From positions 1 to 23,236 of the IMG/VR virus record IMGVR_UViG_3300037882_000996: a stretch of 23,236 nucleotides of DNA; one strand, 5' to 3'. The notes under the pieces were generated by a model that was not told the origin of the DNA, searched no databases, and saw only the letters and a list, made by a program, of their open reading frames with translations. The stretch is from a virus. This document shows, piece by piece, positions 6,799 through 22,594 of the stretch. The translations under genes and the position numbers were made by a program. The stretch's first letter is position 1, and each line of letters starts with the position of its first letter.

Positions 6799-7209
6799 AT
6801 GGCAAAGCAAAATTCAACCAAATGGAAGATGTTAGTTGGCGGGGTCGCTATTGACAATCTTACCGAAGTAAGTATCGAGATCAATAATAAACTTATTGAC
6901 GTAACGACAAAAGATTCTGCCGGATGGGAAGAATTTCTAACCGGTGGCGGGTTGAAGGGCGCAAGCTTTTCAATATCTGGGCTGGTAGATTTTGCCGATA
7001 CCAACTACACGCCTGATGAAATATTCACGTCCCTTGTAGCTGGCTCACAGTTGGCACTTGAGGCAAGTGACGCAGTGACAGGGAGTAAAGAATACACCTT
7101 TACAGGTATGTTTGAAAAGTATTCCGTTGATGGCGGTGTTGAGGATGTTATAAAGTTTTCCGCTTCAGGTAAAGCCACAGGAGTAGTAACTCAAGCCACT
7201 ATCGTATAA
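6799..7209 (+). CDS. Major tail tube protein (TP901-1 family)
   Basis: This 136-residue protein polymerises into the hollow tail tube. The pattern is typical of TP901-1-type major tail proteins: an N-terminal 'LVGGVAIDNLTEVSIEINNK', then 'LIDVTTKDSAGWEEFLTGG' followed by 'GASFSISGLVDF', a helical 'DEIFTSLVAGSQL', and C-terminal strands 'YTFTGMFEKYSV' and 'IKFSASGKATG'. The size is at the short end for the family, with no extra Ig-like domain. Its stop TAA overlaps the ATG of the chaperone gene, so the tube and chaperones are probably made from the same message. Confidence 0.9.
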   Translation: MAKQNSTKWKMLVGGVAIDNLTEVSIEINNKLIDVTTKDSAGWEEFLTGGGLKGASFSISGLVDFADTNYTPDEIFTSLVAGSQLALEASDAVTGSKEYTFTGMFEKYSVDGGVEDVIKFSASGKATGVVTQATIV

Positions 7210-7586
7210 TGAAGAATATCAATATCGGAGGCAAAGAGCGGCCAATATCTTTTAGCCGCAATGCGTTAATCGAATTTGAAAAGACTTCTGGGGTAAAGCT
7301 AATGAGCGGCAACCGTAACTGGTTTGAATCTGCCGAAAGTTGGACTGCCTTAATGTATGCCGGTTTGAAGTGGGGGCTATACAACCCATCGAACGGTAAA
7401 GAGCCAAAACCGGACTTTACTATTCACATGGTTAACGATTGGATTGAATCGCGAATTGAATGTCTTTCCGAGATGTGGGAGGTATTCAACGATTCAATGC
7501 CTAAGGTTAACGGTGAAAAAAAAAGCGAAGTAGTGGCAAGCGAGAAAAGCGAGGGACTTTCACCTGGGAACAGTTCGATAGAATAG
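7209..7586 (+). CDS. Tail assembly chaperone G
   Basis: This 125-residue protein, by analogy with lambda gpG, binds the tape measure and tail tube subunits during tail assembly and is absent from the finished virion. 'NIGGKERPISFSRNALIEFEKTSG' is the characteristic start of this chaperone class, followed by a helical region around 'SWTALMYAGLKWGLY' and 'HMVNDWIESRIECLSEMWEV'. The last 20 or so residues, after the AAA AAA codons at 7518-7523, are low-complexity (Lys/Ser/Glu), as expected for a stretch that doubles as the slip region. Its position between tube and tape measure is diagnostic. A share of ribosomes should shift to give the G-T fusion described separately. Confidence 0.87.
   Translation: MKNINIGGKERPISFSRNALIEFEKTSGVKLMSGNRNWFESAESWTALMYAGLKWGLYNPSNGKEPKPDFTIHMVNDWIESRIECLSEMWEVFNDSMPKVNGEKKSEVVASEKSEGLSPGNSSIE
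7516..7524 (+). promoter_or_regulatory. Programmed -1 ribosomal frameshift site (nine-A slippery run)
   Basis: Nine As lie in the phase GAA AAA AAA AGC. The heptamer A AAA AAA at 7517-7523 has both the P-site and A-site codons (7518-7520, 7521-7523) able to re-pair one base back. The -1 frame has stops at 7508-7510 and 7514-7516 and then opens exactly at 7517, continuing to 7882. No strong downstream pseudoknot was found by eye. GGTGAAA (7512-7518) can pair with TTTCACC (7558-7564), but it spans the slip site and its role is doubtful. Confidence 0.85.
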
Positions 7587-7882
7587 GATTAGGCTACCTT
7601 CAGTTAAAGCCGTGGGAACTTGCCGCTTATACGTTGCGGGACTTGTTTACAGCTTATGAAGGATGGCGCGAAATACAAGTGCATGACAAATGGGAACAGA
7701 CGCGGTTAATATGTTACTGGATGGGCAACCACAAGGCGGCAAAACCGGAGAATCTTTTCCCTTTAGAGATAGATACGATAAGACTTAAAAACCTTGTCGA
7801 TAGTGGTAAGGCACATTTTGCCACAGTAAGAAAACAGACACCGGAGGAACAATTAATAATGAAGAAACTTGGCAGACAATAA
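7517..7882 (+). CDS. T domain of tail assembly chaperone G-T, reached by -1 frameshift
   Basis: This reading frame has no convincing start of its own. The first start-like codon, TTG at 7634, would cut through the conserved segment 'LKPWELAAYTLRDLF' encoded across 7604-7648. Entry by a -1 slip at the A run gives 105 residues of G joined to 119 residues starting from 7523, a 224-residue fusion. The T part contains 'FTWEQFDRIGLGYLQLKPWEL' (split here by description at residues encoded 7559-7621) and 'WEQTRLICYWMGNH', the typical helical T-domain pattern. As in lambda, a minor G-T product would recruit tail tube to G-coated tape measure. The stop overlaps the tape measure start by 14 bases. Confidence 0.86.
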   Translation, partial: KKKRSSGKREKRGTFTWEQFDRIGLGYLQLKPWELAAYTLRDLFTAYEGWREIQVHDKWEQTRLICYWMGNHKAAKPENLFPLEIDTIRLKNLVDSGKAHFATVRKQTPEEQLIMKKLGRQ

Positions 7883-9584
7883 ATTCATATTAAAGTTTTC
7901 CGGTGACACCACCCAATTGCAAGGGGCGGTCGCTCAAGCTAACAACACGTTAACAGGATTCGCTAACAAAGTCCGCAGTTTAGGCGGTATGATGGCTGCA
8001 GGGTTTGCCGTTAGTCAGATAGGGGAGTTTGTTTTAGACGTTTCTAAACTGGCCGGTGAGGCCGAAGGCGTTCGGGTTGCGTTTGAAAGATTACCAGCTT
8101 CAACTCAGTTAATGCTCGATCTGAAAGAGGCCACAAGTGGAACAGTTTCAGAATTAGACCTAATGAAGAGGTCTGTAATGGCCGCAAACTTTGGCATTTC
8201 GCTAAAGGCACTTCCAGAGCTTTTAGAATTTGCATCCATACGAGCAAAGCAAACTGGTCAATCGGTCGATTACTTGGTAGACTCTATCGTGACGGGTATT
8301 GGAAGAAAGTCTAAATTAATACTTGATAACTTAGGGATTAGCGCGGTCGCTTTGGGTGAGGCGATGCACGGGGTATCAATGGAGGCGGCTACCGTTGGTG
8401 AAGTGGCTGAGGCGGTTGGAAAGATTGCCAGCGAAAATCTAAAACAAATGGGTGAGATGAGTGAAAACGCATCCACCAAAATTGAAAGGCTTTCTGCTAA
8501 TTGGACAAATTTAAAAGTAGCTATCGGGGACTCAGCTAACAGTACAGGTATTTTAGGAACTGCCATTGATGCACTTAGTGGATATATGGTGGTTTTGGCC
8601 AGCGATAATTTATCAGCAACTGAAAAAATAGCTGCATTTAATGGGGCTATGGGATTAAGTGTATCTCTATCAAAAGATGCTGCGCTAACAACTGCCAAAG
8701 CCGCTTCCGAACAAAAAAAGGCAAACGAAATACACGAAACGGCCCTTGTACTTTACCGTGATTTAGGACTCAATTACGAGGCTTTAATGAACGTTGCCGG
8801 GGATAACGTTGACGTAATGGAGATATGGGCTGAAATGCAAAAGATAGCGGATGAAAGAGCTAAAGTCCTCAATGATTCATTAAAAACACAGGCAGAAAGA
8901 TTCAAAGGAATTGAAACTAAACTACCAGAGATAACATACTCGTTAAATGAACTAAATGCAGTTTGGGCCGCACTGCAAGCAAGAACAGAATTACCAATTA
9001 TTGATATTGGGGACATTGACCCAGAGATCATTGACCAAAAAACTGAAATGGTTTTCGCTAAAATAAGAGCGAGGACTGAAGAATTTAAACAAACAATATT
9101 AGAAGCTAACGCAATAGTTGAGCAGGGGATTGAAAATACAATTTCTGGTTTTTCATCAGCGTTGGGAGATATGGCGAGCGGAGCGGGTGGGGCCGAATTA
9201 TTAGGCGCTGCTTTGTTGTCTGGCATTGGAGCAATGTCCATTCAGTTAGGTCAGCTTGCTATTGGTGCCGGCATTGCGGTTATGGGGATCAAAAAAGCAC
9301 TACAATCACTAAACCCTGCCATTGCTATTGCTGGTGGCATCGCTTTGATTGCGCTCGGTAAATTAGTATCAAATAAAGCCGCTCAAATTGGTCGATCAGG
9401 CGGTGGCGGGGGTGGTGGCGGAGGGTTTTCGGGAGGTGGTAGTTCTTTTGGCGGTGGTTCTTACGGATCACGCATGGAAAGCGTAGGACAAAGAATAGAA
9501 TTAACATTTACAGGTGATGCCGGAAAGGTTTTGAAGGCTTCGCTTATTAAACAAGATAGGATAGATTCAAGAACCCGTTCGTAA
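7869..9584 (+). CDS. Tape measure protein
   Basis: This 571-residue protein sets tail length and is ejected ahead of the DNA. The start is a TTG at 7869: the frame has a stop at 7860-7862 and no other start before the Met codon of residue 41, while 'ADNKFILKFSGDTTQLQ' is a typical tape-measure N-terminus. Features in order are: a helical repeat-like region (residues 10-60), long amphipathic helices (70-430), two or three hydrophobic segments (about 443-475 and 482-500) that could cross the host membrane on ejection, a Gly-rich linker (511-530), and a short C-terminal unit. At roughly 0.15 nm per residue, the general rule for helical tape measures, the tail would be near 85 nm, short for a siphovirus. 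The start overlaps the T frame by 14 bases. Confidence 0.9.
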   Translation: MADNKFILKFSGDTTQLQGAVAQANNTLTGFANKVRSLGGMMAAGFAVSQIGEFVLDVSKLAGEAEGVRVAFERLPASTQLMLDLKEATSGTVSELDLMKRSVMAANFGISLKALPELLEFASIRAKQTGQSVDYLVDSIVTGIGRKSKLILDNLGISAVALGEAMHGVSMEAATVGEVAEAVGKIASENLKQMGEMSENASTKIERLSANWTNLKVAIGDSANSTGILGTAIDALSGYMVVLASDNLSATEKIAAFNGAMGLSVSLSKDAALTTAKAASEQKKANEIHETALVLYRDLGLNYEALMNVAGDNVDVMEIWAEMQKIADERAKVLNDSLKTQAERFKGIETKLPEITYSLNELNAVWAALQARTELPIIDIGDIDPEIIDQKTEMVFAKIRARTEEFKQTILEANAIVEQGIENTISGFSSALGDMASGAGGAELLGAALLSGIGAMSIQLGQLAIGAGIAVMGIKKALQSLNPAIAIAGGIALIALGKLVSNKAAQIGRSGGGGGGGGGFSGGGSSFGGGSYGSRMESVGQRIELTFTGDAGKVLKASLIKQDRIDSRTRS

Positions 9585-12229
9585 TGGCTGGAATAGTTTG
9601 TAATCTTGCGATGTACACACCCGGATGCTTTGCTATCAATGCGTCTTCGCCCGGTATTGCAGACGGTCAAATTACAGTTAGTGCAATAGATTCGTCAAGT
9701 GCGGCAACTATTCGCTATTCGCTAAACGTTGACACGCCCTATCCATTCGGTCAAACATCAGGAACCTTTACGGGGCTTTTACCTGGTACTTATACGGTCT
9801 ATGCCCGTAACTCAAGCACATGCCGCGCACAAATTACTTTAGTAGTTGGTTACGTTAGTGAGTACGCTATCCGGTATCGCCTACCATTTAAAGACCCTTA
9901 CGACAATCAGTATAAGATCGAGATTGAAGATTCAGAATATGAAAGCGCAACGGTAAACGATGTAATAGGCGGCATGGTTCCGGTCAGGATTATCCACCGG
10001 GGAGAAAGCGAGGAAGATATTTTTTATCCGGTTGTTTCTTCTGTGATTGAGGTTTCAATAATAAGCCAAACCGACCAGCAATTTATCGACTTTTACACCT
10101 TCGATGAAAGGAGATTCAGGGCAAAGGTTTACAAGTGGAACGGTGCAAGTTATGACCTTTACCATGTTGGGTATCTTACCCCGATGCTTTATTCAGAATC
10201 TTACGTTTTAAAAGAAGGCTATGAAATACAATTATCATTTACAGACGGTTTAGCTGACCTTATAAAATACGATTTTAGCGATGATGGCGGGAACATAATA
10301 AATGATAGAGTACCTATTTTCAACGCCATCAATTACATCATCAACAAAACAGGGATAGCCTTAAACTATTGGGAAACGGTCAATGTACTGGCGTCCGCAA
10401 TGACTTCTTTGGATAACGACAGCGCGTTAGAGCAGGGTTATATTGACCCTAAAGCATACCAAAACACGGACGGAACTGTAAAAAATTGCCGTGATGTGTT
10501 AGGCTACCTGATGGAGTTTTTAGGTGCTAAAATCTATCAGTCAAACGGTCGTTGGAACATTGATCTAATAAGTGAAAAAACCGCGTCCACAGTTCTAACC
10601 AGAAAGAGAACGGATAATTTTGGGTCTATTGGTTCGGCAAGCGAAAGCCCACGACTTTTACTAAGGAGGTCAACAGCAGCAAGTCCGCGTATAATGTGGA
10701 AAGACCAAAGCCAGGTAATGAGCATCCCTCACACATGGGGAACAATAGAGCTAACCCATAACTTAGGAATAGAAAATAAAAACAATCTATTACCATACGG
10801 TGAATTTTTCGAAGAAGATATTGAGGTTGGTCAGTTCAAAGGATGGCAGATAGATGACACAGATGGAGGGGGTGCTACTTTTGGACTTGAAAAAATAGAA
10901 AGGAACGGGGAACAGCAGGATGTTTTGTTTGTGGATTTTTCAGCTTGCAATATCGCTGATAATTTTGTTATACTTCAAAGCCTACCTGTTCAGTACGACT
11001 TTCCTGGTGGGTTTTCTTATCAATGGATAAAACTTAGTTTTGATGTTTACACGAGACCACTATTTACAAAAGCTGATATATTTTTAGACTACGCAATTTC
11101 ATTAAATGACGGTCTTTATGTTACGCCAAGACTTTATTCCACGGCCAACGTTTTCGGGCCAGGGAAAAGAGTAATATCAACCGATGTAGATGAATTAATA
11201 GATGGTAAATACAATAGATTAGTCATCACAGAGAGTCTTTCATGGAAAACCATTACAGTAGAGTTTCCTATTTACTTTGTATCACTAAATACCGTTTCTT
11301 CTGACGGGCCTATTAAAGTAGAATTTAGAATACGCAGTAACCCTATTTATGACTACAGCAGTATAGCAAATCTCAAAACAGAGGTTGTAGATTCTGACAC
11401 AACGCAGGACACTATATATTGGAATAAAACGAGGCGCGTACTTGATACAGAATATGGGCAAAATGTTATTAGGGTTTACGAAGTAGAACGCGGAGGGTGG
11501 ACTGAGGATTCGCCTAACATAATCAGGCCGAATGGGTTTTCCGTTGCATCACCATTTAAACTGGCCTACATTTGGAGACTAAAGGAAACCATTCAAATAG
11601 AGGCAACCGATAAAAATTGGCTTCAAAACATTCTTTTCGATAACATAAAACTTGAATATTTTCCTGATGGTGAAGCCCCGATTGAAAAAGAATTGATAAC
11701 TGAGGTTCCAAATGCACAGGTAAAGCAAACTTATGAAAAGGAGTTGGTTCATGGTGATCTTTCTGTTAAAAATCAAAAAGTCTGGAATGGTGCATTGACT
11801 CAATTCATAGACAATAATTATAAGAATGTACAACGCTCTTACATTTCTCTTAATAATGGGAGTCCTATAAACGGGTCATGGGCTAGGCGAGGCGTAACGG
11901 AAAGTCATACAATAACTCAGCTTTTAGCCAAAATGATACGCGGCCAGTATCAGGAGTTAAGGTGGAAAGAAACCGGAACCATGATTTGCCCTGATGGTAT
12001 GATTTCTTTTTGGAACACAGTACATGAGGTTAGGACAGGCAAAATTTATCAATTAATTTCGCTTGTCCAAAACCTAAAGTTTGCCGAGGCCGAGGTAGAA
12101 ATGATTGAAACGCTTTCCGGTGGTTCGCCATTGGATGAGAGTACAGACCCCGGAGGCAGCCCCGGCCCGATAGAGCCACCAGTTAGCACAAGGGTACATA
12201 GTGCAGATTTTAGTTCGGACTTTAATTAA
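9584..12229 (+). CDS. Large tail tip / hub-like protein with N-terminal SprB-like domain
   Basis: This 881-residue protein follows the tape measure at a TAATG overlap, the place of the distal-tail/hub protein. Residues about 22-88 form a small beta-sandwich-like repeat (GIADGQITV...FTGLLPGTYTVYARN...C) resembling the SprB repeats of Bacteroidetes adhesins. Residues about 95-235 (YAIRYRLPFKDPYDNQYKI, YHVGYLTPMLYSE, IQLSFTDGLADLIKYDF) resemble hub proteins I recall from Bacteroidetes phages. The middle is beta-rich and varied. The C-terminal part (LLAKMIRGQYQELRW, TGKIYQLISLVQNLKFAEAEVEM) is the conserved end, followed by a Pro/Gly-rich tail that may carry the next component. A role in the tail tip is well supported by position; the enzymatic or receptor role is unknown. 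Confidence 0.8.
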   Translation: MAGIVCNLAMYTPGCFAINASSPGIADGQITVSAIDSSSAATIRYSLNVDTPYPFGQTSGTFTGLLPGTYTVYARNSSTCRAQITLVVGYVSEYAIRYRLPFKDPYDNQYKIEIEDSEYESATVNDVIGGMVPVRIIHRGESEEDIFYPVVSSVIEVSIISQTDQQFIDFYTFDERRFRAKVYKWNGASYDLYHVGYLTPMLYSESYVLKEGYEIQLSFTDGLADLIKYDFSDDGGNIINDRVPIFNAINYIINKTGIALNYWETVNVLASAMTSLDNDSALEQGYIDPKAYQNTDGTVKNCRDVLGYLMEFLGAKIYQSNGRWNIDLISEKTASTVLTRKRTDNFGSIGSASESPRLLLRRSTAASPRIMWKDQSQVMSIPHTWGTIELTHNLGIENKNNLLPYGEFFEEDIEVGQFKGWQIDDTDGGGATFGLEKIERNGEQQDVLFVDFSACNIADNFVILQSLPVQYDFPGGFSYQWIKLSFDVYTRPLFTKADIFLDYAISLNDGLYVTPRLYSTANVFGPGKRVISTDVDELIDGKYNRLVITESLSWKTITVEFPIYFVSLNTVSSDGPIKVEFRIRSNPIYDYSSIANLKTEVVDSDTTQDTIYWNKTRRVLDTEYGQNVIRVYEVERGGWTEDSPNIIRPNGFSVASPFKLAYIWRLKETIQIEATDKNWLQNILFDNIKLEYFPDGEAPIEKELITEVPNAQVKQTYEKELVHGDLSVKNQKVWNGALTQFIDNNYKNVQRSYISLNNGSPINGSWARRGVTESHTITQLLAKMIRGQYQELRWKETGTMICPDGMISFWNTVHEVRTGKIYQLISLVQNLKFAEAEVEMIETLSGGSPLDESTDPGGSPGPIEPPVSTRVHSADFSSDFN

Positions 12230-12234
12230 ATGTT

Positions 12235-12711
12235 ATGGCAGCTTTAAGTCCAGTAAATTACGAGACAAAATTTAACGACATATCCACAGGTCAGTATCGT
12301 GATGGTCAAGGAGCCTCGGCTATAAATCCGCTAAAGCACCGTACATTAGTCACTGACACAAAAGATAGTTTTCACAACACGCAGTTTATTTCAGGGTCTT
12401 CATTTTCTGCTGCATTTGCTATAATAAACTTATTAGAAACTAATTTCCCTCAAGTAATTGTTTCTGATACAATTTCTTCAAACATAGTAATAACATTATC
12501 GGGCGATACATTTAAACCATCTTTTACTTTTATATTTACAACATCTGGCAGTCCTTATTTACAGTTTCCATCCACGTTTAAAAGTTCAGACGCGAGATGG
12601 GATAATGCTACAAAAAGATTTAGCCCACTTGAGGCTGGGCTTTACAAGGCGCGGGCTGATTGGGATGGTACAAGTTGGTTAATAGACTTTTCACCTTCAA
12701 TATATTCATAA
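12235..12711 (+). CDS. Small tail-tip-associated protein, function unknown
   Basis: This 158-residue protein begins at an ATG five bases after the tail tip stop, and its TAA overlaps the ATG of the fibre gene. It has no signal peptide, unlike the three genes after it. The N-terminal 'NYETKFNDISTGQYRDGQG' and 'LVTDTKDSFHN' look like an attachment segment. The rest is a Ser/Thr/Phe-rich, probably all-beta domain ending 'LYKARADWDGTSWLIDFSPS'. Likely a tip or fibre-base protein linking the hub to the fibre, but I do not recognise a named family. Confidence 0.7.
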   Translation: MAALSPVNYETKFNDISTGQYRDGQGASAINPLKHRTLVTDTKDSFHNTQFISGSSFSAAFAIINLLETNFPQVIVSDTISSNIVITLSGDTFKPSFTFIFTTSGSPYLQFPSTFKSSDARWDNATKRFSPLEAGLYKARADWDGTSWLIDFSPSIYS

Positions 12712-15338
12712 TGAAAAAACTTTTTTATTTACCTATACTCGTTACGCTACTTTTTGCGAGTTCTTTGCGGGCGCAAAACTTTACGACTGTTAAGACTTTG
12801 TTAAGCAGAGTTACAGACTCAACTGCAGTAACGCCTGCCGGTTGGGGTGCGCTTAGATATAACGCACAAAGAGCATCTCCGGCATGGCAGTTTTGGAACG
12901 GTGCAAGCTGGGAATTGTTTGGAAGCGGTGGCGTTAGCCTTTCTGCAAACAACACTTGGACAGGTAACAACGCCTTCAGAAACGCGACCAGAACCGAAAC
13001 TGGAACCACTTACACAATCCAAGCAAGCGATGAGGGGTTAAATATCCACTTTACGAATGCTTTACCAATTACAGTTACTTTCCCCAATGGATTAGCACAG
13101 TATTTTAATTGTGCGGTCATAAAAGCTGGTGTTGGGAATGTTAACATTGTCGCAACAGGAACTTTAAACAGCGCTGGCACATCAATAACAACGCTTTACA
13201 CGGGAGCATCGGTTACTCATTTGGGCAGTAACGTATGGCTGGCTATCGGGGCTTTTGGAAGTGGCGGAGGATCAGGCGATGTGGTCGGCCCAGCATCTTC
13301 AGTAAATAACAACGTAGCTTTTTTTGATGGCGTAACCGGAAAACTAATAAAGGATTCAGGGCTTACATTATCAGGGTCAAATAATGGCGATGTGTCATTA
13401 GCCGGAACCCCTGATTACATAACCATTTCAGGCCAAACAATTACCAGGGGATTGGTTGATCTTGCAAACGATGTTACGGGATTGGTACCCGTTGCAAATG
13501 GCGGTACGGGAACGGCAACGCCTTCTATTGTAGCGGGTACGAATATAACAGTTACAGGTACATGGCCCAATCAAACAATTAACTCAACCGGAGGCGGTGG
13601 TGGAGGCATAACCATAGGAACCACAACAATTACAGGAGGAACTAATACCAGGGTACTTTACAATAATAGCGGAATAGTTGGCGAATATCCCGCACTCGGA
13701 TCGGGTAGCGTTGTAATGGGTACGCACACAAGCCCTAACAGTTTACTATTTGATGGGTCGTTAACATTTACCGCAGACGGTCAATATCACACACGGGTTG
13801 CGCCAGTAGCCACAGCCGGAACGAATACCGCACACCTTCAAGCTATTGCCGGAATAGGAGGCACGATTAACGCGGGGGCAAATAGTCAGGTTTTAAGAGG
13901 GCTTGTAATAAATACTGCTTACTCTTTTGGAGGATTTTCAGTACCGAGTTATTCAAATCTTGGTTTAGATATTCGGGATGGTGGCACAGCAAACGGAGGT
14001 TTTAAGTTTTATACCGATGCTTTTACCAATTCAACAAATGCTTTTCAGATTATAAGCCGTACCGGAGTGACCACAATGGAGGCAGGAGTAGATTCAGGAA
14101 GCGGATATATTAGTACAAACTCAGGCAAAAACTTCACGCTTCAAATTGGCGGTGGCGCACTTTGGAGAACTACCATAGGAGGCTCACGAATTTTAGAAAC
14201 CGGAACAGTTACTTTAGACGCAAGCCGTACTGTATTCGGCCCTGCATGGTCAGGTACATCTACAACAAGTACAGCAACGCAACAAAGTTCTAATTCAAGT
14301 TTAGGTTTTCAGGGTAGGGGATGGAATGGAAGTTCAGCGGTTACAACATATCTATACGATAATTTTACAGCCTCAACCGCTACAAATCTTTTATTTAATC
14401 AGACGCGAAAGTTCTGGAACGGAACAACTGCAAACGACATTTGGAATATAACCAGCACCGGACTAATGTTTTTAGGTGGAGGCACAGAACCCACATCGGT
14501 TTTGGACTTGTCAGCTTCAACAACAGGTCGCGCATCTTTAAGGCTTAGACCTGGAACAGCCCCAACAACTCCAAACGATGGCGAGGTGTGGAGTACAACT
14601 ACTGGGCTTTTTAGCCGAATTAACGGGGTAACCTATGATTTAACTGCTGGGGGAGGTGCAACAAATTTAGGATTTACACCTTCAGCAACTGACGGTATAG
14701 TAACAAGCGATACAGGTACAGATGCAACTATCCCTTTAGGTAATGGTACAAACTCAGGTCTTTCATTAAACGATTACACCACCGCAGAAAAGAATAAACT
14801 TGCCGCTATATCAGGTACTAATACTGGCGATCAAACAATAACACTAACCAGCGATGTTACCGGTAGCGGAACGGGTTCTTTTGCAACTACAATCGCCAAC
14901 GATGCTGTGACCTATGCTAAAATGCAAAACGTATCTACTGCATCAAAATTAATAGGCCGAGGAGATAGCGGAAGTGGTGACCCTCAAGAAATAACCATAG
15001 GAAGCGGATTAACCATGACAGGCACAACTTTGAGCGTACAAACTTACTACGCACCAAATACACTTGTAGGAAATGCCACAGACGCAAACTTTACCGCTAC
15101 GGCTAACGGGATTCATAACATACTTGACGGAGTGGCAACGGCTAATAGAGTTATAACAATACCAACTGGATCAAATGGTGACGTAATGAAATTCTATAAT
15201 ACAGAAGATACACGGGTATGGAGTTTTACGGGCGCAACGGTTTACCTTGCTGATAGGGTTACCGTAGTAACTCAATTGGATTATAATTATCCGTGCTTTA
15301 TGGAAAAAATTGATGGACTTTGGATTATAACAAACTAA
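12711..15338 (+). CDS. Long tail fibre-like protein with predicted Sec signal peptide
   Basis: This 875-residue protein starts at the ATG at 12711; an in-frame TTG at 12660 is rejected because it lies inside the previous gene. Residues 1-21 (MKKLFYLPILVTLLFASSLR, then A) form a clear signal peptide with predicted cleavage before Gln22. The body is Gly/Thr/Ser/Asn-rich with phage fibre motifs: 'GDVVGPASSVNNNVAFFDG' and 'TGKLIKDSG' (about residues 187-217), 'DYTTAEKNKLAAISGTNTGDQ' split across about 690-710, and 'SDVTGSGTGSFATTIANDA' to 'GRGDSGSGDPQEITIGSG' (about 715-770). A compact beta-rich C-terminal tip follows, and no S74 chaperone domain is present. These motifs are common in trimeric fibres, so it is probably the receptor-binding fibre. 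The signal peptide is anomalous for such a protein. Confidence 0.82.
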   Translation: MKKLFYLPILVTLLFASSLRAQNFTTVKTLLSRVTDSTAVTPAGWGALRYNAQRASPAWQFWNGASWELFGSGGVSLSANNTWTGNNAFRNATRTETGTTYTIQASDEGLNIHFTNALPITVTFPNGLAQYFNCAVIKAGVGNVNIVATGTLNSAGTSITTLYTGASVTHLGSNVWLAIGAFGSGGGSGDVVGPASSVNNNVAFFDGVTGKLIKDSGLTLSGSNNGDVSLAGTPDYITISGQTITRGLVDLANDVTGLVPVANGGTGTATPSIVAGTNITVTGTWPNQTINSTGGGGGGITIGTTTITGGTNTRVLYNNSGIVGEYPALGSGSVVMGTHTSPNSLLFDGSLTFTADGQYHTRVAPVATAGTNTAHLQAIAGIGGTINAGANSQVLRGLVINTAYSFGGFSVPSYSNLGLDIRDGGTANGGFKFYTDAFTNSTNAFQIISRTGVTTMEAGVDSGSGYISTNSGKNFTLQIGGGALWRTTIGGSRILETGTVTLDASRTVFGPAWSGTSTTSTATQQSSNSSLGFQGRGWNGSSAVTTYLYDNFTASTATNLLFNQTRKFWNGTTANDIWNITSTGLMFLGGGTEPTSVLDLSASTTGRASLRLRPGTAPTTPNDGEVWSTTTGLFSRINGVTYDLTAGGGATNLGFTPSATDGIVTSDTGTDATIPLGNGTNSGLSLNDYTTAEKNKLAAISGTNTGDQTITLTSDVTGSGTGSFATTIANDAVTYAKMQNVSTASKLIGRGDSGSGDPQEITIGSGLTMTGTTLSVQTYYAPNTLVGNATDANFTATANGIHNILDGVATANRVITIPTGSNGDVMKFYNTEDTRVWSFTGATVYLADRVTVVTQLDYNYPCFMEKIDGLWIITN

Positions 15339-15341
15339 ACT

Positions 15342-17096
15342 ATGAAAAAAATACTTTTCTTATTACTGATTTCAAGCGCAGCTTTCGGGCAATATAATGG
15401 TGCGCCTAAACTAAACCAGCCACCACAAGGCGATGAAACCGGAATGCTGGTAAGACAGATTCCACAGGATATAGATAGAATCGGATTTAATAAAACTATC
15501 AGTAACAACGTGGACAGCGATTGGGGGGCGTTGATAACTGGTATTGGGGCTGGAATGGATGTTGACCAGACAAGCGGCAATCTTGTGATTACGAGCGGAA
15601 CTACCGCCAGAAGTGAAACTATTATACGATCAACCGAATCATGGCAAGGTGGGATAAGATTAAGAGCAAGGTCAACGCTATCGCAACGAATAGCGAATCA
15701 AAACTTCTTCGTTGAGTTGGTAGACGTTATTGGTGATGGGCTTACTTATTCAATCGGATCAGCAACAGCCATAACTGTAACCATCCCTTCTAATCCGTTC
15801 ACCGCTCAAAACGTAGGGCAATCGATGTATATAGGAGTGTTTTCAGGAACCGGTACTTTTTTATCTGGCCGATACCCGATTGCTTCCGTAAGTGGTAACG
15901 ATGTTACTTTTACTGTATCGGGATTTGCGGTTGGTACAGGTACGTGTTCATTATTCGGCCATAGCTATTATCAACTACACTATACAGGAACAACGGCAAC
16001 AAACGCAAACTTCGACACGCAAAGAAATGGATATGCCACAGGCGCAACCAACGCAACAATTAATACTACCGCGACACCCGGGCATTTGGCTATTATTACG
16101 GGTAATGACTTAATAGCTACTTTTTCAGACGCTTTGATAGCAACAGCAACAGGTGTTCAAGTTTTGAATAGAGCTAACAGGCATGAGAATATTCCAGACG
16201 ACAAATCGTTACGCCTTCAAATAAGAATAGCAAACGGTTCAACCGCTCCCGCATCTACAACCACTTGGACTATTGGATTTGTTTCAGTTAGCCATTATTC
16301 AAATACAGATATTTCGATTCAGGACGTTAGGCCAATGTCATTTGCTCAAGCCTTACCTGTTGAATTAGTTAGAGGCGTGGCGACAGCTACTCAGCCAGTT
16401 TCAGGAACTGTAGCAGCCACCTCTACATTGGCAGCGGGAGCAACTACCAACCCTAATAAATTGGAAGATGCCGTTTCGGCTACTGGCGATAATGGGATGT
16501 TTAATATGGGGATTAGGCGCGATGCGTTAACCATATCATCAAGCGCAACAGGTGATTATAACGAAATTTCTGTTAATAGATTTGGCGCAAATTATTCGGC
16601 TGGATTTAGAACATCAGCGCGTACATATAGTGCCACTGCTTCAATATCACCAGAGGCCTCAGCAACGGATATAATGGCCTTTTTTGGTAACGCATCTAGT
16701 ACTGTGCAAATAAATAAAATCAGGATTACCGGATCGGTAGGAACCGCAGGGTCGTTTGAAGCCTTCTTAATAAAAAGAAGTACCGCAAATACTGGCGGCA
16801 CGTCTTCTAATTTTTCGGTTGCATTACATGAATCATCGGATGCTGTCAATAACTCTACGCCTATTGCTTATACAGCTAATCCAACACCGGGAACTTCTGC
16901 CGGGACTTTCAGAAGATGGTATCAATATTTACCCACGTCAAGCAGCGGCCCTGCGGATGAGTATGTAGTAGAGTTTACAGATAACGGTAAGCCAATTATT
17001 TTATCAGGAACATCGCAGGGTATTGTATTAAATCTTAACGGTGTAACGCTTGTTGCCGCTAATGTCATTGTAAATATTGAGTGGACAGAATTCTAA
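15342..17096 (+). CDS. Virion-type structural protein with predicted Sec signal peptide
   Basis: This 584-residue protein starts three bases after the fibre stop. Residues 1-16 (MKKILFLLLISSAAFG) are a signal peptide with predicted cleavage before Gln17. Three all-beta regions follow. Residues about 95-320 (WQGGIRLRARSTLSQRIANQ, FFVELVDVIGDG, GRYPIASVSG) are first. Residues about 325-420 (DVRPMSFAQALPVELVRGVA, GDNGMFNMGIRRD) resemble a repeated virion module. Residues about 440-584 (INKIRITGSVGTAG, AFLIKRSTANTGGT, YTANPTPGT) resemble a C-terminal domain that I recall in structural proteins of other phages. The likely role is a side fibre or tail decoration. Similar domains in unrelated phages argue it is part of the virion despite the signal peptide. 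Confidence 0.75.
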   Translation: MKKILFLLLISSAAFGQYNGAPKLNQPPQGDETGMLVRQIPQDIDRIGFNKTISNNVDSDWGALITGIGAGMDVDQTSGNLVITSGTTARSETIIRSTESWQGGIRLRARSTLSQRIANQNFFVELVDVIGDGLTYSIGSATAITVTIPSNPFTAQNVGQSMYIGVFSGTGTFLSGRYPIASVSGNDVTFTVSGFAVGTGTCSLFGHSYYQLHYTGTTATNANFDTQRNGYATGATNATINTTATPGHLAIITGNDLIATFSDALIATATGVQVLNRANRHENIPDDKSLRLQIRIANGSTAPASTTTWTIGFVSVSHYSNTDISIQDVRPMSFAQALPVELVRGVATATQPVSGTVAATSTLAAGATTNPNKLEDAVSATGDNGMFNMGIRRDALTISSSATGDYNEISVNRFGANYSAGFRTSARTYSATASISPEASATDIMAFFGNASSTVQINKIRITGSVGTAGSFEAFLIKRSTANTGGTSSNFSVALHESSDAVNNSTPIAYTANPTPGTSAGTFRRWYQYLPTSSSGPADEYVVEFTDNGKPIILSGTSQGIVLNLNGVTLVAANVIVNIEWTEF

Positions 17097-17106
17097 AAGA
17101 ATCTTT

Positions 17107-19320
17107 ATGAGGTTAATTGTATTCTTATTTTCTGTAACTTTTGCTTTTGGCCAAAACCATAAGGCTTTCTATTATAGCAGTACTGCCAACCAATTACCAC
17201 CCGTTGACTACGCACAAGAGGGCGAAGATTATTTAACGGCTAATGCGAGAACGTTTCACGACTTCACCACGCTATCAGGGGCGCACGGAAGTACCATAAC
17301 ATCATCTAATGACCTGTCGCCAAATAACCGCGACCTAACGAATAACCCCGGAGGGCTTTATTCGGCCAATACCCCTACCGTTTTTAAATTCAGGTTCCCG
17401 GATATTACCCAAGTTCCGACACACTACACGGCAAGCAATCAACCGTTACTATTTACCAACAATACAACTAACGCGATATTCTCAACCTCGCACGAAGTGC
17501 ATTTATCTTTTTCGGCACGCAGCAAAAACTTTGTGCTTTATTTGTTTGGGGTGAACTCTACGCAAGTCCATTATGCGCAAATAAACACGGACGGAAAGAT
17601 TTCTATATTCATTAAGAGAGCAGCTACCACTACCCACTTGAGAACAGTTAACGCGGTCTTTACTCAGTCAATACAGAACGGTGATTTAGGAAACCTTATT
17701 GCTTTACGATTCCGGTATAACTTTACCGCAGGGTCAGAGGAATGCAAAGTTTATTTGAATAATTCTGAAATAGCTACCGAGTTGGTTTCGGGGTCTGCCG
17801 TTGCTTCGTGGGATAGCGGATACAGTTGGAATAATCTTTACTCAGTAGCAATCGGGGCGTATGCTCAGGCTACTAACACAACAGGAAACACAAAACCACA
17901 CTTCAACCATAAGTTTGCGGTTACGCCTTTATTAAGTCAGGACGATGCAAATTTAGTTACCCATTGTATGCTATCCACTCCACCACAAAGCGGCAATACC
18001 GTTGTGATCGGTGATTTTAGAATGGCGTTGACTACAGAATCAAAAGGCTATGCAGCTTCGGTTTATTTAGCTGAATCAGGAACCGAAACAATCGCGGTAT
18101 CAGGATCGGGTGGCGTTAACATTACAGGCACATCTTTAAGTTTCACTCCAAGCGATTACAATGTGCCTCAATTAGTAAAGATTGTTGGTAATGACAATTA
18201 CGGGTATATTCCGCGAACAATAAGTTTTGGCACAAAGGATAAAACAGTTGTAACCGCTCAATCATTTTCTGGAACTGGTGGAAAAGATGGGACTGATGTA
18301 TATTTAACCGATGGATGGAACGCTGCCAGACTTGAGGCACACAGAATCAATATACCTAACATTTCATCGCTAAGGGATTCTATAAAAACAACTTTATTCA
18401 AAGGATCGTACCCTGCCGGAACCTATGAAACCGTAACCACACCGACAAGCTACGGAGGTGTTACTTTGGCACACGCAAGTGCAGGGGCAAAGAACCGTTA
18501 TAAGTTCAGCGAGGATGATGGTAACGCGGATGAGTATCGTAACTACGTTGCGCATGTTCGGAACAACACACCAAATAACAAACTATTTATTCAACTATTT
18601 GGACACGGTGAATCCTTCCACCAAGAAATGTATAATAGTATAATAGCATTGGGTTACGATTGGGCTGGTGCGTGTATGGCTTTCGCGGTAGAAAACGAAG
18701 AAGACTCACCATTGATTACCGCTTCGCCTTCATGGTTAGGACACGACCAACTATTTACAAGCGGAATTGATAATTCAAGTTTTGATGCAAGGAGATTATT
18801 CTTTTTTGATAAGATTAGATTTTTGGATTACATACTAACACAGCACTCTTATGATGAAATTATTGTAGCTGGCGTAAGTGGTGGCGGTTTTGAAACTTTG
18901 ATGTGGGCAAGTTTTGATAACCGTATAGACAAGGCTTTTTGTGTACGTGGTGCAAATAGTTACAACCATCCAGAAAGCGGCTCGGACTTTGAACAAGGGC
19001 CAAGTTTCCTAACTGAAAACTTTGGAGGGGCCTCAGCGAGTGAAGCGGTGCATGGGCCAAGAGTAACAGCCGACTACCGTAGTTTGGGATATTTAAAACG
19101 GATGGCATTGGTAGCGGCTAACGGGGCAGAATTTCATCACATGTCGCACGAGTTGGACGTATTAGGGGGGTCTTATTATAACCAGATACCTAACGACATA
19201 ATGCAAACCAGGTGTTCGGGATTTACGGGTAGTTTTCATGTTTACGTTAACACTAACGCAAGCGAGGCAACACACGGATTTAACACAAGCGATCGGCAAT
19301 ATATTTTAGATAACCTATGA
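17107..19320 (+). CDS. Signal-peptide, LamG-like, Ig-like and alpha/beta-hydrolase (esterase-like) tail protein
   Basis: This 737-residue protein is read from the ATG at 17107; the in-frame TTG at 17077 overlaps the previous gene and would bury the signal peptide. Residues 1-15 (MRLIVFLFSVTFAFG) form a signal peptide ending before Gln16. Residues about 45-285 look like a concanavalin/LamG-type sandwich (FTTLSGAHGSTITSSNDLS, VHLSFSARSKNFVLYLFG, VYLNNSEIATEL). Residues about 298-385 look like an Ig-like unit (VYLAESGTETIAVSG, LSFTPSDYNVPQLVKIVG). Residues about 455-737 are an alpha/beta hydrolase: Ser591 in GVSGGG is the nucleophile elbow, His723 in EATHGF the probable catalytic His, and Asp684 a candidate acid. 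The order suggests a sugar-binding, ester-cleaving receptor or capsule enzyme; the substrate is unknown. Confidence 0.8.
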   Translation: MRLIVFLFSVTFAFGQNHKAFYYSSTANQLPPVDYAQEGEDYLTANARTFHDFTTLSGAHGSTITSSNDLSPNNRDLTNNPGGLYSANTPTVFKFRFPDITQVPTHYTASNQPLLFTNNTTNAIFSTSHEVHLSFSARSKNFVLYLFGVNSTQVHYAQINTDGKISIFIKRAATTTHLRTVNAVFTQSIQNGDLGNLIALRFRYNFTAGSEECKVYLNNSEIATELVSGSAVASWDSGYSWNNLYSVAIGAYAQATNTTGNTKPHFNHKFAVTPLLSQDDANLVTHCMLSTPPQSGNTVVIGDFRMALTTESKGYAASVYLAESGTETIAVSGSGGVNITGTSLSFTPSDYNVPQLVKIVGNDNYGYIPRTISFGTKDKTVVTAQSFSGTGGKDGTDVYLTDGWNAARLEAHRINIPNISSLRDSIKTTLFKGSYPAGTYETVTTPTSYGGVTLAHASAGAKNRYKFSEDDGNADEYRNYVAHVRNNTPNNKLFIQLFGHGESFHQEMYNSIIALGYDWAGACMAFAVENEEDSPLITASPSWLGHDQLFTSGIDNSSFDARRLFFFDKIRFLDYILTQHSYDEIIVAGVSGGGFETLMWASFDNRIDKAFCVRGANSYNHPESGSDFEQGPSFLTENFGGASASEAVHGPRVTADYRSLGYLKRMALVAANGAEFHHMSHELDVLGGSYYNQIPNDIMQTRCSGFTGSFHVYVNTNASEATHGFNTSDRQYILDNL

Positions 19321-19553
19321 GATACATCATTTTACTTTTATTGTTTTCTTCTTGTACTATAAACAGGTACACGGTATGTAATCACAAGTCGGTTAACCCT
19401 TTTGATAGCGGAGGGATTTCTGTCACTAAGCCAATTAACGTATCTAATTACAGACACATGGAATGGGTTATTAAGCGTGATAGCCTAAATGGGGATATAA
19501 TAACTACTCCATTTTACGACAGCTCAAAAACACTAAAGATCAGAAAGCCATGA
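19317..19553 (+). CDS. Predicted small lipoprotein
   Basis: This 78-residue protein starts by ATGA overlap with the esterase-like gene. Residues 1-12 are a short hydrophobic leader (MRYIILLLLFSS) followed by Cys13, which fits a lipobox, though the residues before Cys (F-S-S) are less usual than the consensus. The mature 66 residues are polar with no recognisable domain. In phages such small lipoproteins act as outer spanin subunits or superinfection-exclusion factors. It lacks the Pro-rich stretch of lambda Rz1. It is followed by another overlapping gene (ATGA). Confidence 0.65.
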   Translation: MRYIILLLLFSSCTINRYTVCNHKSVNPFDSGGISVTKPINVSNYRHMEWVIKRDSLNGDIITTPFYDSSKTLKIRKP

Positions 19554-20905: not shown

Positions 20906-21140
20906 CTGGTTAATTGCCGGGATGATGGCCCTTTTAATCTTTATGATGAAACGGGCGAATGATCGCGCAGACATCAGGGAAAAAAAGATAGATGAAATTC
21001 TGGAAAAGCAACAAGAGCAAATTTCAGAACACGATAAACTTCTGGCCTTCCATCAGGCAAAAATTGAAATTCATGATAATGTTTTTGAGAAAAGCGAACG
21101 GGTTTACAAGGAGATAATGTTAAAACTTGGAAAGGCATGA
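20862..21140 (+). CDS. Holin-like membrane protein with coiled coil
   Basis: This 92-residue protein has one hydrophobic segment at about 14-30 (ANWLIAGMMALLIFMM) followed by a basic turn (KRANDRADIREKK) and a coiled coil to about residue 90 (EILEKQQEQISEHDKLLAF and onwards). The charge pattern predicts the coiled coil in the cytoplasm, which argues against an inner spanin and is more like a small holin or an XhlA-type accessory with reversed order. It overlaps the amidase gene by ATGA, so the pair forms the core of a lysis cassette. Family not recognised with certainty. Confidence 0.7.
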   Translation: MEFAPLLTDTGVSANWLIAGMMALLIFMMKRANDRADIREKKIDEILEKQQEQISEHDKLLAFHQAKIEIHDNVFEKSERVYKEIMLKLGKA

Positions 21141-21616
21141 GAATAGTCCACACAATAGTAATTCATTGCAGCGCAACCCGTGAGGATATTAACTATACCT
21201 TTGACAACTGCATCAGAGATCACAAAGCCAGGGGATTCCGAAAGTGTGGTTATCATTTTTACATAACAAAAGACGGTAAAATCCATATAGGCCGATTACT
21301 GTCAGAGGTTGGCGCACACGTGGGCAAAGATTTCAACGCAAACTCCATAGGCATATGTTACGAAGGTGGCATAAGGGCCAAAGGAAACCCATCTAACCCA
21401 AAGGATGCGATCGACACGCGGACACCAGCACAAAAGGGCGCAATCTTAAAGTGTATATCTGAGAGTTTAGCCTATGGGCAAGGCAATATAAAGCGGATTA
21501 TTGGCCATCGTGATCTATCGCCAGACCTAAACGGTAACGGGGTAATTGAGCCGAAAGAGTGGATTAAAAGCTGCCCTTGCTTCGATGCTGAACCAGAATA
21601 TAAATACTTGTTGTAA
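21137..21616 (+). CDS. Endolysin: N-acetylmuramoyl-L-alanine amidase (T7 lysozyme-type) with EF-hand-like loop
   Basis: This 159-residue zinc amidase would cut the bond between N-acetylmuramic acid and L-Ala in peptidoglycan during lysis. Zinc ligands by comparison with T7 lysozyme are His10 (VIHCSAT), His124 (GHRDLSPD) and Cys146 (KSCPCFD). Tyr39 (GYHFYI) and Lys144 match the T7 catalytic Tyr and Lys. Between the second His and the Cys lies a short insert, residues 130-141 (DLNGNGVIEPKE), that fits a canonical EF-hand loop with D130, N132, N134, G135, I137 and E141. Such a loop suggests calcium binding beside the active site. No signal peptide is present, so export depends on the holin. The start overlaps the coiled-coil gene by ATGA, with AAAGG just upstream. 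Confidence 0.94.
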   Translation: MRIVHTIVIHCSATREDINYTFDNCIRDHKARGFRKCGYHFYITKDGKIHIGRLLSEVGAHVGKDFNANSIGICYEGGIRAKGNPSNPKDAIDTRTPAQKGAILKCISESLAYGQGNIKRIIGHRDLSPDLNGNGVIEPKEWIKSCPCFDAEPEYKYLL

Positions 21617-21994: not shown

Positions 21995-22594
21995 ATGAAA
22001 AAATACCTATACATAGGACTGGTTTTAATCGTTATCTACGCAGTAATTCAAACATACAGGACGAAAAGACTGAAGAGCAAACTGGAAACAGCCATCACCG
22101 AAAAGGGCCAAGCGATAGACCTAATAACTGGGGAACTTGCAAACAAGGTGAAGATCTACGAAGGCAAATTAGGCGAACATGTGGCACAGGTTGAAGCCAG
22201 CGAACTATCTAAAAAGAACCTTGAGGCTCTGCTTAAATCAGAGCAACTCAAGTACTGGAGGTCATTTAAATCGAAAACAAAGCATACTGAAAGTATAGGA
22301 TCAATAGAATTTGTTTCAGAGCCTTTTAAAGAAATAGTACATGACACTGTTTACCTATTGGGTGGATGCAATGTATTCGCCTATAATTACCATGACGAGT
22401 ACAATAACATAGTCGCTAACGTAATTGATACGCCATTATTTCAGATGCGCGTACCTGTTTATATAAAGGACAATAGCTACCGTAAAAGGTTTTTAGGAAT
22501 AGGATTAGGCCGAAGGATTTACGACAGGGAAGCATACACGCCCAATAAATTAGTAAGCCTTGATAGCATTGTTTTTATAAAAACCTCTAAATAG
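21995..22594 (+). CDS. Membrane-anchored coiled-coil protein, possible inner spanin
   Basis: This 199-residue protein starts 36 bases after the terminator-like T-run. Residues 3-19 (KYLYIGLVLIVIYAVIQ) are an N-terminal membrane anchor, residues about 22-85 a charged coiled coil (KRLKSKLETAITEKGQAI and onwards), and residues about 90-199 a probably periplasmic domain with strands 'IGSIEFVSEPFKEIVHDTVY' and 'LFQMRVPVYIKD'. Anchor plus coiled coil plus periplasmic end is the architecture of Rz-type inner spanins and of several Bacteroidetes phage proteins of unknown function. Its separation from the amidase by two hairpins suggests read-through or its own promoter. Function inferred, not shown. 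Confidence 0.65.
   Translation: MKKYLYIGLVLIVIYAVIQTYRTKRLKSKLETAITEKGQAIDLITGELANKVKIYEGKLGEHVAQVEASELSKKNLEALLKSEQLKYWRSFKSKTKHTESIGSIEFVSEPFKEIVHDTVYLLGGCNVFAYNYHDEYNNIVANVIDTPLFQMRVPVYIKDNSYRKRFLGIGLGRRIYDREAYTPNKLVSLDSIVFIKTSK

Follow-up and report, generated by a model that had tools for sequence, protein, structure and literature searches.

Sec leaders on three consecutive tail-region proteins suggest that some Bacteroidetes phages are assembled in two compartments

Virion assembly of tailed phages is normally cytoplasmic, and fibres are known to be added late, to particles already complete, in T4, P22, and other classic phages. The coat proteins of filamentous phages enter the Sec pathway. 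Bacteroidetes phages are frequent in gut and aquatic viromes, and their annotation is poor. In Bacteroidetes, most substrates of signal peptidase I expose a Gln after cleavage (the Q-rule; mean 71% per species), and this Gln is cyclised (PMC5837995) to pyroglutamate, which makes exported proteins more stable (PMC10653852). Leaders on phage proteins of the kind described here have been noted in passing: signal peptides were mentioned on lyase-domain proteins of the phages Ingeline and Nekkels (Bartlau et al. 2021; PMC8776804), and five Q-rule genes of unknown function were reported in Porphyromonas gingivalis phages (Matrishin et al. 2023; PMC10367356). The target proteins of phage DGRs were stated to be without signal peptides (Benler et al. 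2018; PMC6199706). A full-text literature search, with subscription journals and preprints largely outside its reach, returned no paper that treats the export of fibres as a way of assembling virions.

The locus analysed here is a viral stretch of 23,236 bases (IMGVR_UViG_3300037882_000996; hereafter, the window). It encodes portal, prohead protease, and major capsid proteins (Pfam), small head–tail proteins, a tape-measure-like protein, an 881-aa tip protein, a 158-aa protein, and three large proteins (P0001, P0002, and P0003). After these come a small protein predicted to be a lipoprotein and a lysis module that includes an Amidase_2 endolysin (Table 1). The tail is probably of the non-contractile type, because no sheath gene was seen in the window. 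A search for loci related to the tip protein found none. The 158-aa protein is a candidate tail-side adaptor, the small lipoprotein a possible outer-membrane spanin, and the anchored protein beyond the endolysin a putative inner-membrane spanin-like protein. The genes for P0001–P0003 lie past the tip gene and ahead of the lysis genes, the position of a tail fibre or receptor-binding protein.

Table 1. Positions of the features discussed in the text, numbered from the first base of the window; a slash marks a predicted cleavage site
Feature	Position	Strand	Remarks
Tape-measure-like protein (by position)	7869..9584	+	PHROG of unknown function; leaderless
Tail tip protein (by position)	9584..12229	+	Two PHROGs of unknown function; leaderless
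158-aa protein	12235..12711	+	Leaderless; stop codon overlaps ATG of fibre gene
Fibre gene P0001, 875 aa	12711..15338	+	Sec leader, variable N-terminal part, DUF5907 repeat, conserved C-terminal domain
P0001 signal peptide, 21 aa	12711..12773	+	Predicted cleavage SLRA/QNF
Conserved C-terminal domain of P0001	15021..15335	+	81–85% identity to six other phage loci in alignment
Second virion-type protein P0002, 584 aa	15342..17096	+	Leader, lectin-like core (predicted), variable C-terminus
P0002 signal peptide, 16 aa	15342..15389	+	Predicted cleavage AAFG/QYN; near-identical in relatives
P0002 core domain, aa 45–322	15474..16307	+	Predicted concanavalin-A-like lectin/GH16 beta-sandwich; leaderless in other phages
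Third leader-bearing protein P0003, 737 aa	17107..19320	+	Relatives not detected
P0003 signal peptide, 15 aa	17107..17151	+	Predicted cleavage FAFG/QNH
Small predicted lipoprotein	19317..19553	+	Lipobox LLLLFSS/C
Endolysin (Amidase_2)	21137..21616	+	Lysis module, after the exported genes
N-terminally anchored protein	21995..22594	+	DUF6549 just under cut-off

A first-pass annotation had proposed that P0001–P0003 carry Sec leaders ending in Ala or Gly before a Gln, and that the genes ahead of them have none. Leaders were called with a rule-based predictor written for this analysis (n-, h-, and c-regions plus the −3/−1 rule) rather than with SignalP; at its threshold of 11.5, it gave false positives at 1 of 2050 internal Met starts and 22 of 8620 shuffled N-termini (0.05–0.26%). 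Both proposals were borne out. The translated N-termini, MKKLFYLPILVTLLFASSLRA/QNF, MKKILFLLLISSAAFG/QYN, and MRLIVFLFSVTFAFG/QNH, score 12.0–13.8, with Gln at +1 in all three, and no upstream gene is called, including those for the portal, protease, capsid, tape measure, tip, and 158-aa proteins. Given such low false-positive rates, the chance of three adjacent leaders is below about 1e-6. All three have the predicted features of a signal peptidase I substrate: a basic n-region, a hydrophobic core, small residues at −3 and −1, and no lipobox. A fourth leader, of lipoprotein type (MRYIILLLLFSS/C), belongs to the small gene that follows. In-frame TTG codons lie upstream of the P0001 and P0003 starts (at 12660 and 17077), and an ORF caller that chose them would hide both leaders. 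We considered type IX secretion and rejected it, as searches of P0001–P0003 against Pfam and NCBIfam returned no match to a C-terminal sorting domain.

A site of the A-x-A/Q type is present in 32 of 34 distinct leaders against a background Gln frequency of 3.4%, a figure that describes a non-random set drawn from the window family and Cellulophaga phage cassettes, related sequences included, and is not a test on independent samples. Since the leaders follow the published Q-rule, the +1 Gln points to Bacteroidetes hosts for these phages. The mature N-termini of P0001–P0003 would probably be pyroglutamate, which fits the same rule (PMC5837995).

Scanning with the fibre P0001 yielded seven loci (L002–L008) in which the last ~100 residues are 78–90% identical. 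The gene after the fibre is a P0002 relative in 7/7, and both genes have a leader with Gln at +1. Further scans added L022, L024, and L063–L067. Both leaders are present in all P0001 and P0002 relatives with an intact start, a count that leaves aside the L024 fibre, truncated at its start. The upstream genes fall into groups without detectable mutual similarity (the window; L002/L004; L003; L005/L006; L007/L008/L022), so that the fibre/P0002 pair sits on at least four unrelated backbones. One of these is contractile, L006 encoding a tail sheath and a baseplate hub (PHROGs). Because the same pair with its leaders recurs on dissimilar backbones, it is, as judged from sequence comparison, a cassette that moves among unrelated virions, leaders included. 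The leaders are not due to chance, being kept in every intact-start copy across these backbones. A more distant relative, L031, has three leader-bearing genes in succession and shares two upstream genes with L005/L006.

Several relatives show features of their own. L006 and L007 carry DNA-identical fibre genes of 2286 bases (7012–9297 in both) on unrelated backbones, which points to a very recent exchange, or else to a misassembly joining two phages. In L022 (8756–9995) and L067 (6001–7240), pieces of one contig, the fibre frame is broken ~118 residues in, after the leader; the closely similar L064–L066 have an intact 465-aa fibre gene, and the break may be genuine or an error of sequencing. 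In L002 (550–1032) and L004 (6885–7328), from related phages, the exported fibre gene is immediately preceded by one for a predicted lipoprotein (mature start C-DSFDQEVEFK or similar), and this lipoprotein is a possible outer-membrane partner. L034, an otherwise unrelated contig, has two successive leader-bearing genes (MKKILVLIASLLIAGTAYA and MKKILFLLLLLPSVALA/Q; 194–1888) ahead of other phage genes.

For P0003, no relatives were found in viral contigs or phage records, and family searches gave no match; the LamG/esterase label of the first-pass annotation came from inspection by eye, as does the suggestion of a hydrolase from a GVSGGG motif. A single-sequence structure model was unusable (pLDDT 29). 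Weak PDB sequence matches to benzoylformate decarboxylase (E 0.01–0.25) were taken as chance.

The bodies of the other proteins were compared with phage proteins that lack leaders. The P0002 core is leaderless in L025 (73% identical), in L026–L029, and in Microcystis phage Mae-JY24, and the L025 protein has a virion-structural PHROG domain (phrog_5838) in place of the leader. In a 13-row tree of this core, the leader-bearing rows nest within the leaderless family, with two state changes and modest support. The AlphaFold model of the core reaches 10-residue means of 79–96 within residues 121–210 and is poor elsewhere; its fold matches are to proteins of uncultured Caudovirales phages, concanavalin-A-like lectins, and GH16 enzymes, so the core is predicted to be lectin-like. 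Among the fibres, the L005 leader is joined straight to a canonical fibre start (...GFS/QVKISDMPAATSLTGTEIVPIVQGGINKKA), the leaderless counterpart of which is MAQVKISALTPADPLTGSEELPLVQGGVTKRA in Halomonas phage QHHSV-1; similar leaderless starts occur in Stenotrophomonas phage A1432 and Aeromonas phage Aeh1, and the canonical start directly follows the leader in L005, L006, L008, and L063. A pectate-lyase-like region of tailspike type is present in the L006 fibre as well. In the window itself, homology to leaderless proteins covers the core of P0002; P0001 shows only the DUF5907 repeat (PF19264, 1.3e-13) and its conserved C-terminus, and no homology was found for P0003. Because leaderless phage virion proteins share the P0002 core and the N-terminus of the relatives' fibres, the bodies of P0002 and of those fibres are, by homology, phage parts, and only the leader is host-like.

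Records of virion proteins are available for Cellulophaga phages. This evidence consists of notes ("annotation based on experimental MS/MS proteomics analysis") in their GenBank records, and it is for these parallel cassettes only that presence in virions is recorded. In the Assiduviridae phages phi10:1 and phi19:1, the note stands on gp091–094 (four consecutive proteins) and gp101–104, respectively, and in the Pachyviridae phage phi18:3 on gp085–087; every one of these proteins bears a leader, and 10/11 have Gln at +1, the exception being phi19:1 gp104. Eight other MS/MS-noted proteins of phi10:1 that were checked (portal, capsid, tail, tip, and others) are all leaderless. Conversely, phi10:1 gp004, gp044, and gp058 bear a leader or lipobox and carry no MS/MS note. 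The same fibre modules occur on Assiduviridae and Pachyviridae backbones, and domain homologues of phi10:1 gp093 are leaderless in phi4:1 and in the crAss-like phi14:2. A comparison of these cassettes with the window proteins gave no clear sequence homology, making them a parallel case.

Directly before the exported block of phi10:1 lies gp090 (L036, 41492–41842), a leaderless protein of 116 aa with an MS/MS note. It has a faint likeness to the fibre N-terminal motif and may be a split-off tail anchor. As gp090 and the 158-aa protein of the window are each small, leaderless, and just ahead of an exported block, both may be tail-side adaptors. We rejected the idea that leaders are universal in Bacteroidetes phages: in the parts examined, fibres are leaderless in ten sampled phages (phi38:1, phi4:1, phi14:2, phi18:1, phiSM, 6H, 11b, P12024S, B40-8, and tooticki). 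With so many leaderless fibres, the export route would be optional.

We favour, with a probability of roughly 0.6, the reading that P0001–P0003 form a receptor-binding module that is exported by Sec, cut, probably capped with pyroglutamate, kept in the periplasm, and added to virions at lysis. Each of the three proteins would be made with a Sec signal peptide, cross the inner membrane, and be cleaved by the signal peptidase I of the host, which would expose a Gln at the N-terminus that a host enzyme would probably cyclise. The mature proteins would then wait in the periplasm, the expected stop for proteins with neither a lipobox nor a type IX sorting domain. Heads and tails would meanwhile be built in the cytoplasm from leaderless proteins, without these fibres. 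Once the envelope is breached by the lysis proteins, whose genes lie immediately downstream, virions would meet the fibres and mount them; we infer both this timing and the mode of attachment. The module would pass as a cassette between unrelated phages. Leader-tagged fibres recorded in virions suggest a virus built in one compartment, with fibres added from another. As a general statement, that some Bacteroidetes tailed phages assemble capsid and tail in the cytoplasm and mount a Sec-exported, capped, periplasm-stored receptor-binding module at lysis, the module being shared since docking follows export, we rate the proposal at slightly better than even.

Of the three explanations offered by the first-pass annotation, export followed by joining of the virion is the best supported, as proteins with the same type of leader carry MS/MS notes in the Cellulophaga phage records. 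The main rival, which we consider unlikely but the most serious of the alternatives, holds that the exported proteins serve the infected cell or its surroundings, by occupying receptors, blocking superinfection, or cutting sugars to which progeny would stick, and that their detection by virion MS/MS is carry-over. It has precedents in lambda Lom, a leader-bearing protein encoded between the tail spike and tail fibre genes (PMC12309495), and in the P. gingivalis phage Q-rule proteins, which were read as host modification (PMC10367356). The pectate-lyase likeness of some cassette members would also suit a cell-side role. Membrane proteins can occur in virion preparations, since phi4:1 gp057 (L040, 10570–11286), a spanin-like membrane protein encoded beside the amidase, carries the MS/MS note as a virion protein. 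Against carry-over, the records list as virion proteins 11 cassette members from three phages but none of the three other phi10:1 proteins that look exported. The conserved and swapped ends of the fibres and their canonical N-terminus likewise argue for fibres, and neither the window nor phi10:1 has a large leaderless fibre candidate past the tip gene.

That the genes were picked up recently from host surface proteins, with the leaders as relics, draws on the resemblance of the leaders to those of host secreted proteins, but we consider it very unlikely. This part of the first-pass annotation was not supported for the bodies, whose matches are to leaderless proteins of phage virions and not to bacterial genes; two pattern-limited scans of bacterial genome contigs, for the fibre C-terminus and the P0002 family, turned up no relatives, the leaders are kept on unrelated backbones, and the nesting of leader-bearing P0002 cores within a leaderless family, for all its modest support, points the same way. 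Somewhat less implausible, though still quite improbable, is a leader that does not serve mainly for export, either because part of the protein stays in the cytoplasm and joins virions there or because the uncut leader anchors the protein in the membrane or acts as a handle for assembly. Cytoplasmic assembly is the norm and signal peptides can leak, yet the near-universal A-x-A/Q site fits cleavage and not anchoring, and most leader-bearing genes have no Met codon just past the leader for a restart. An artefact, in which N-termini are hydrophobic by chance or start codons are wrong, gains some room from the home-made predictor; against the measured false-positive rates, the conservation of the leaders, and the +1 Gln, we regard it as scarcely credible.

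If the fibres are exported first, as we propose, lysis becomes an assembly step, and progeny inside the cell would have no working fibres. The exported fibres could also protect the infected cell against superinfection, and the route could be part of the reason why unrelated virions can use one fibre cassette. The combination of a fibre with a Q-rule leader offers a sequence rule for finding receptor-binding genes in Bacteroidetes phages. If true, the two-compartment proposal departs from the textbook account of wholly cytoplasmic tailed-phage assembly.

Compared with known systems, the window proteins and their relatives resemble the fibres and tailspikes of Caudoviricetes, with which they share the position past the tip gene, modular ends of which one is conserved and the other variable, and beta-rich lectin or lyase domains; the N-terminal motif KIS.L.AA..LTG.E..P.VQGG is common to such fibres and relatives of the window. 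Ordinary Caudoviricetes fibres have no export signal, whereas in the present case the fibre body is placed behind a Sec leader that has a Q-rule site. The Cellulophaga cassettes (phi10:1, phi19:1, and phi18:3; also Nekkels and Ingeline) likewise encode several successive leader-bearing, nearly all Q-rule proteins past the tail genes, but, as no clear sequence homology was seen, count as a parallel case and not as the same family. The P. gingivalis phage genes share the phage-encoded Sec leaders that expose Gln, but their products were not described as fibres (PMC10367356). Lambda Lom resembles the window proteins in being a leader-bearing product of the tail region and differs in that it is not a fibre but resides in the outer membrane of the host. 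Filamentous phage coat proteins are also virion proteins that enter Sec, but their virions are unrelated to those of tailed phages and are put together at the membrane, with no lysis involved.
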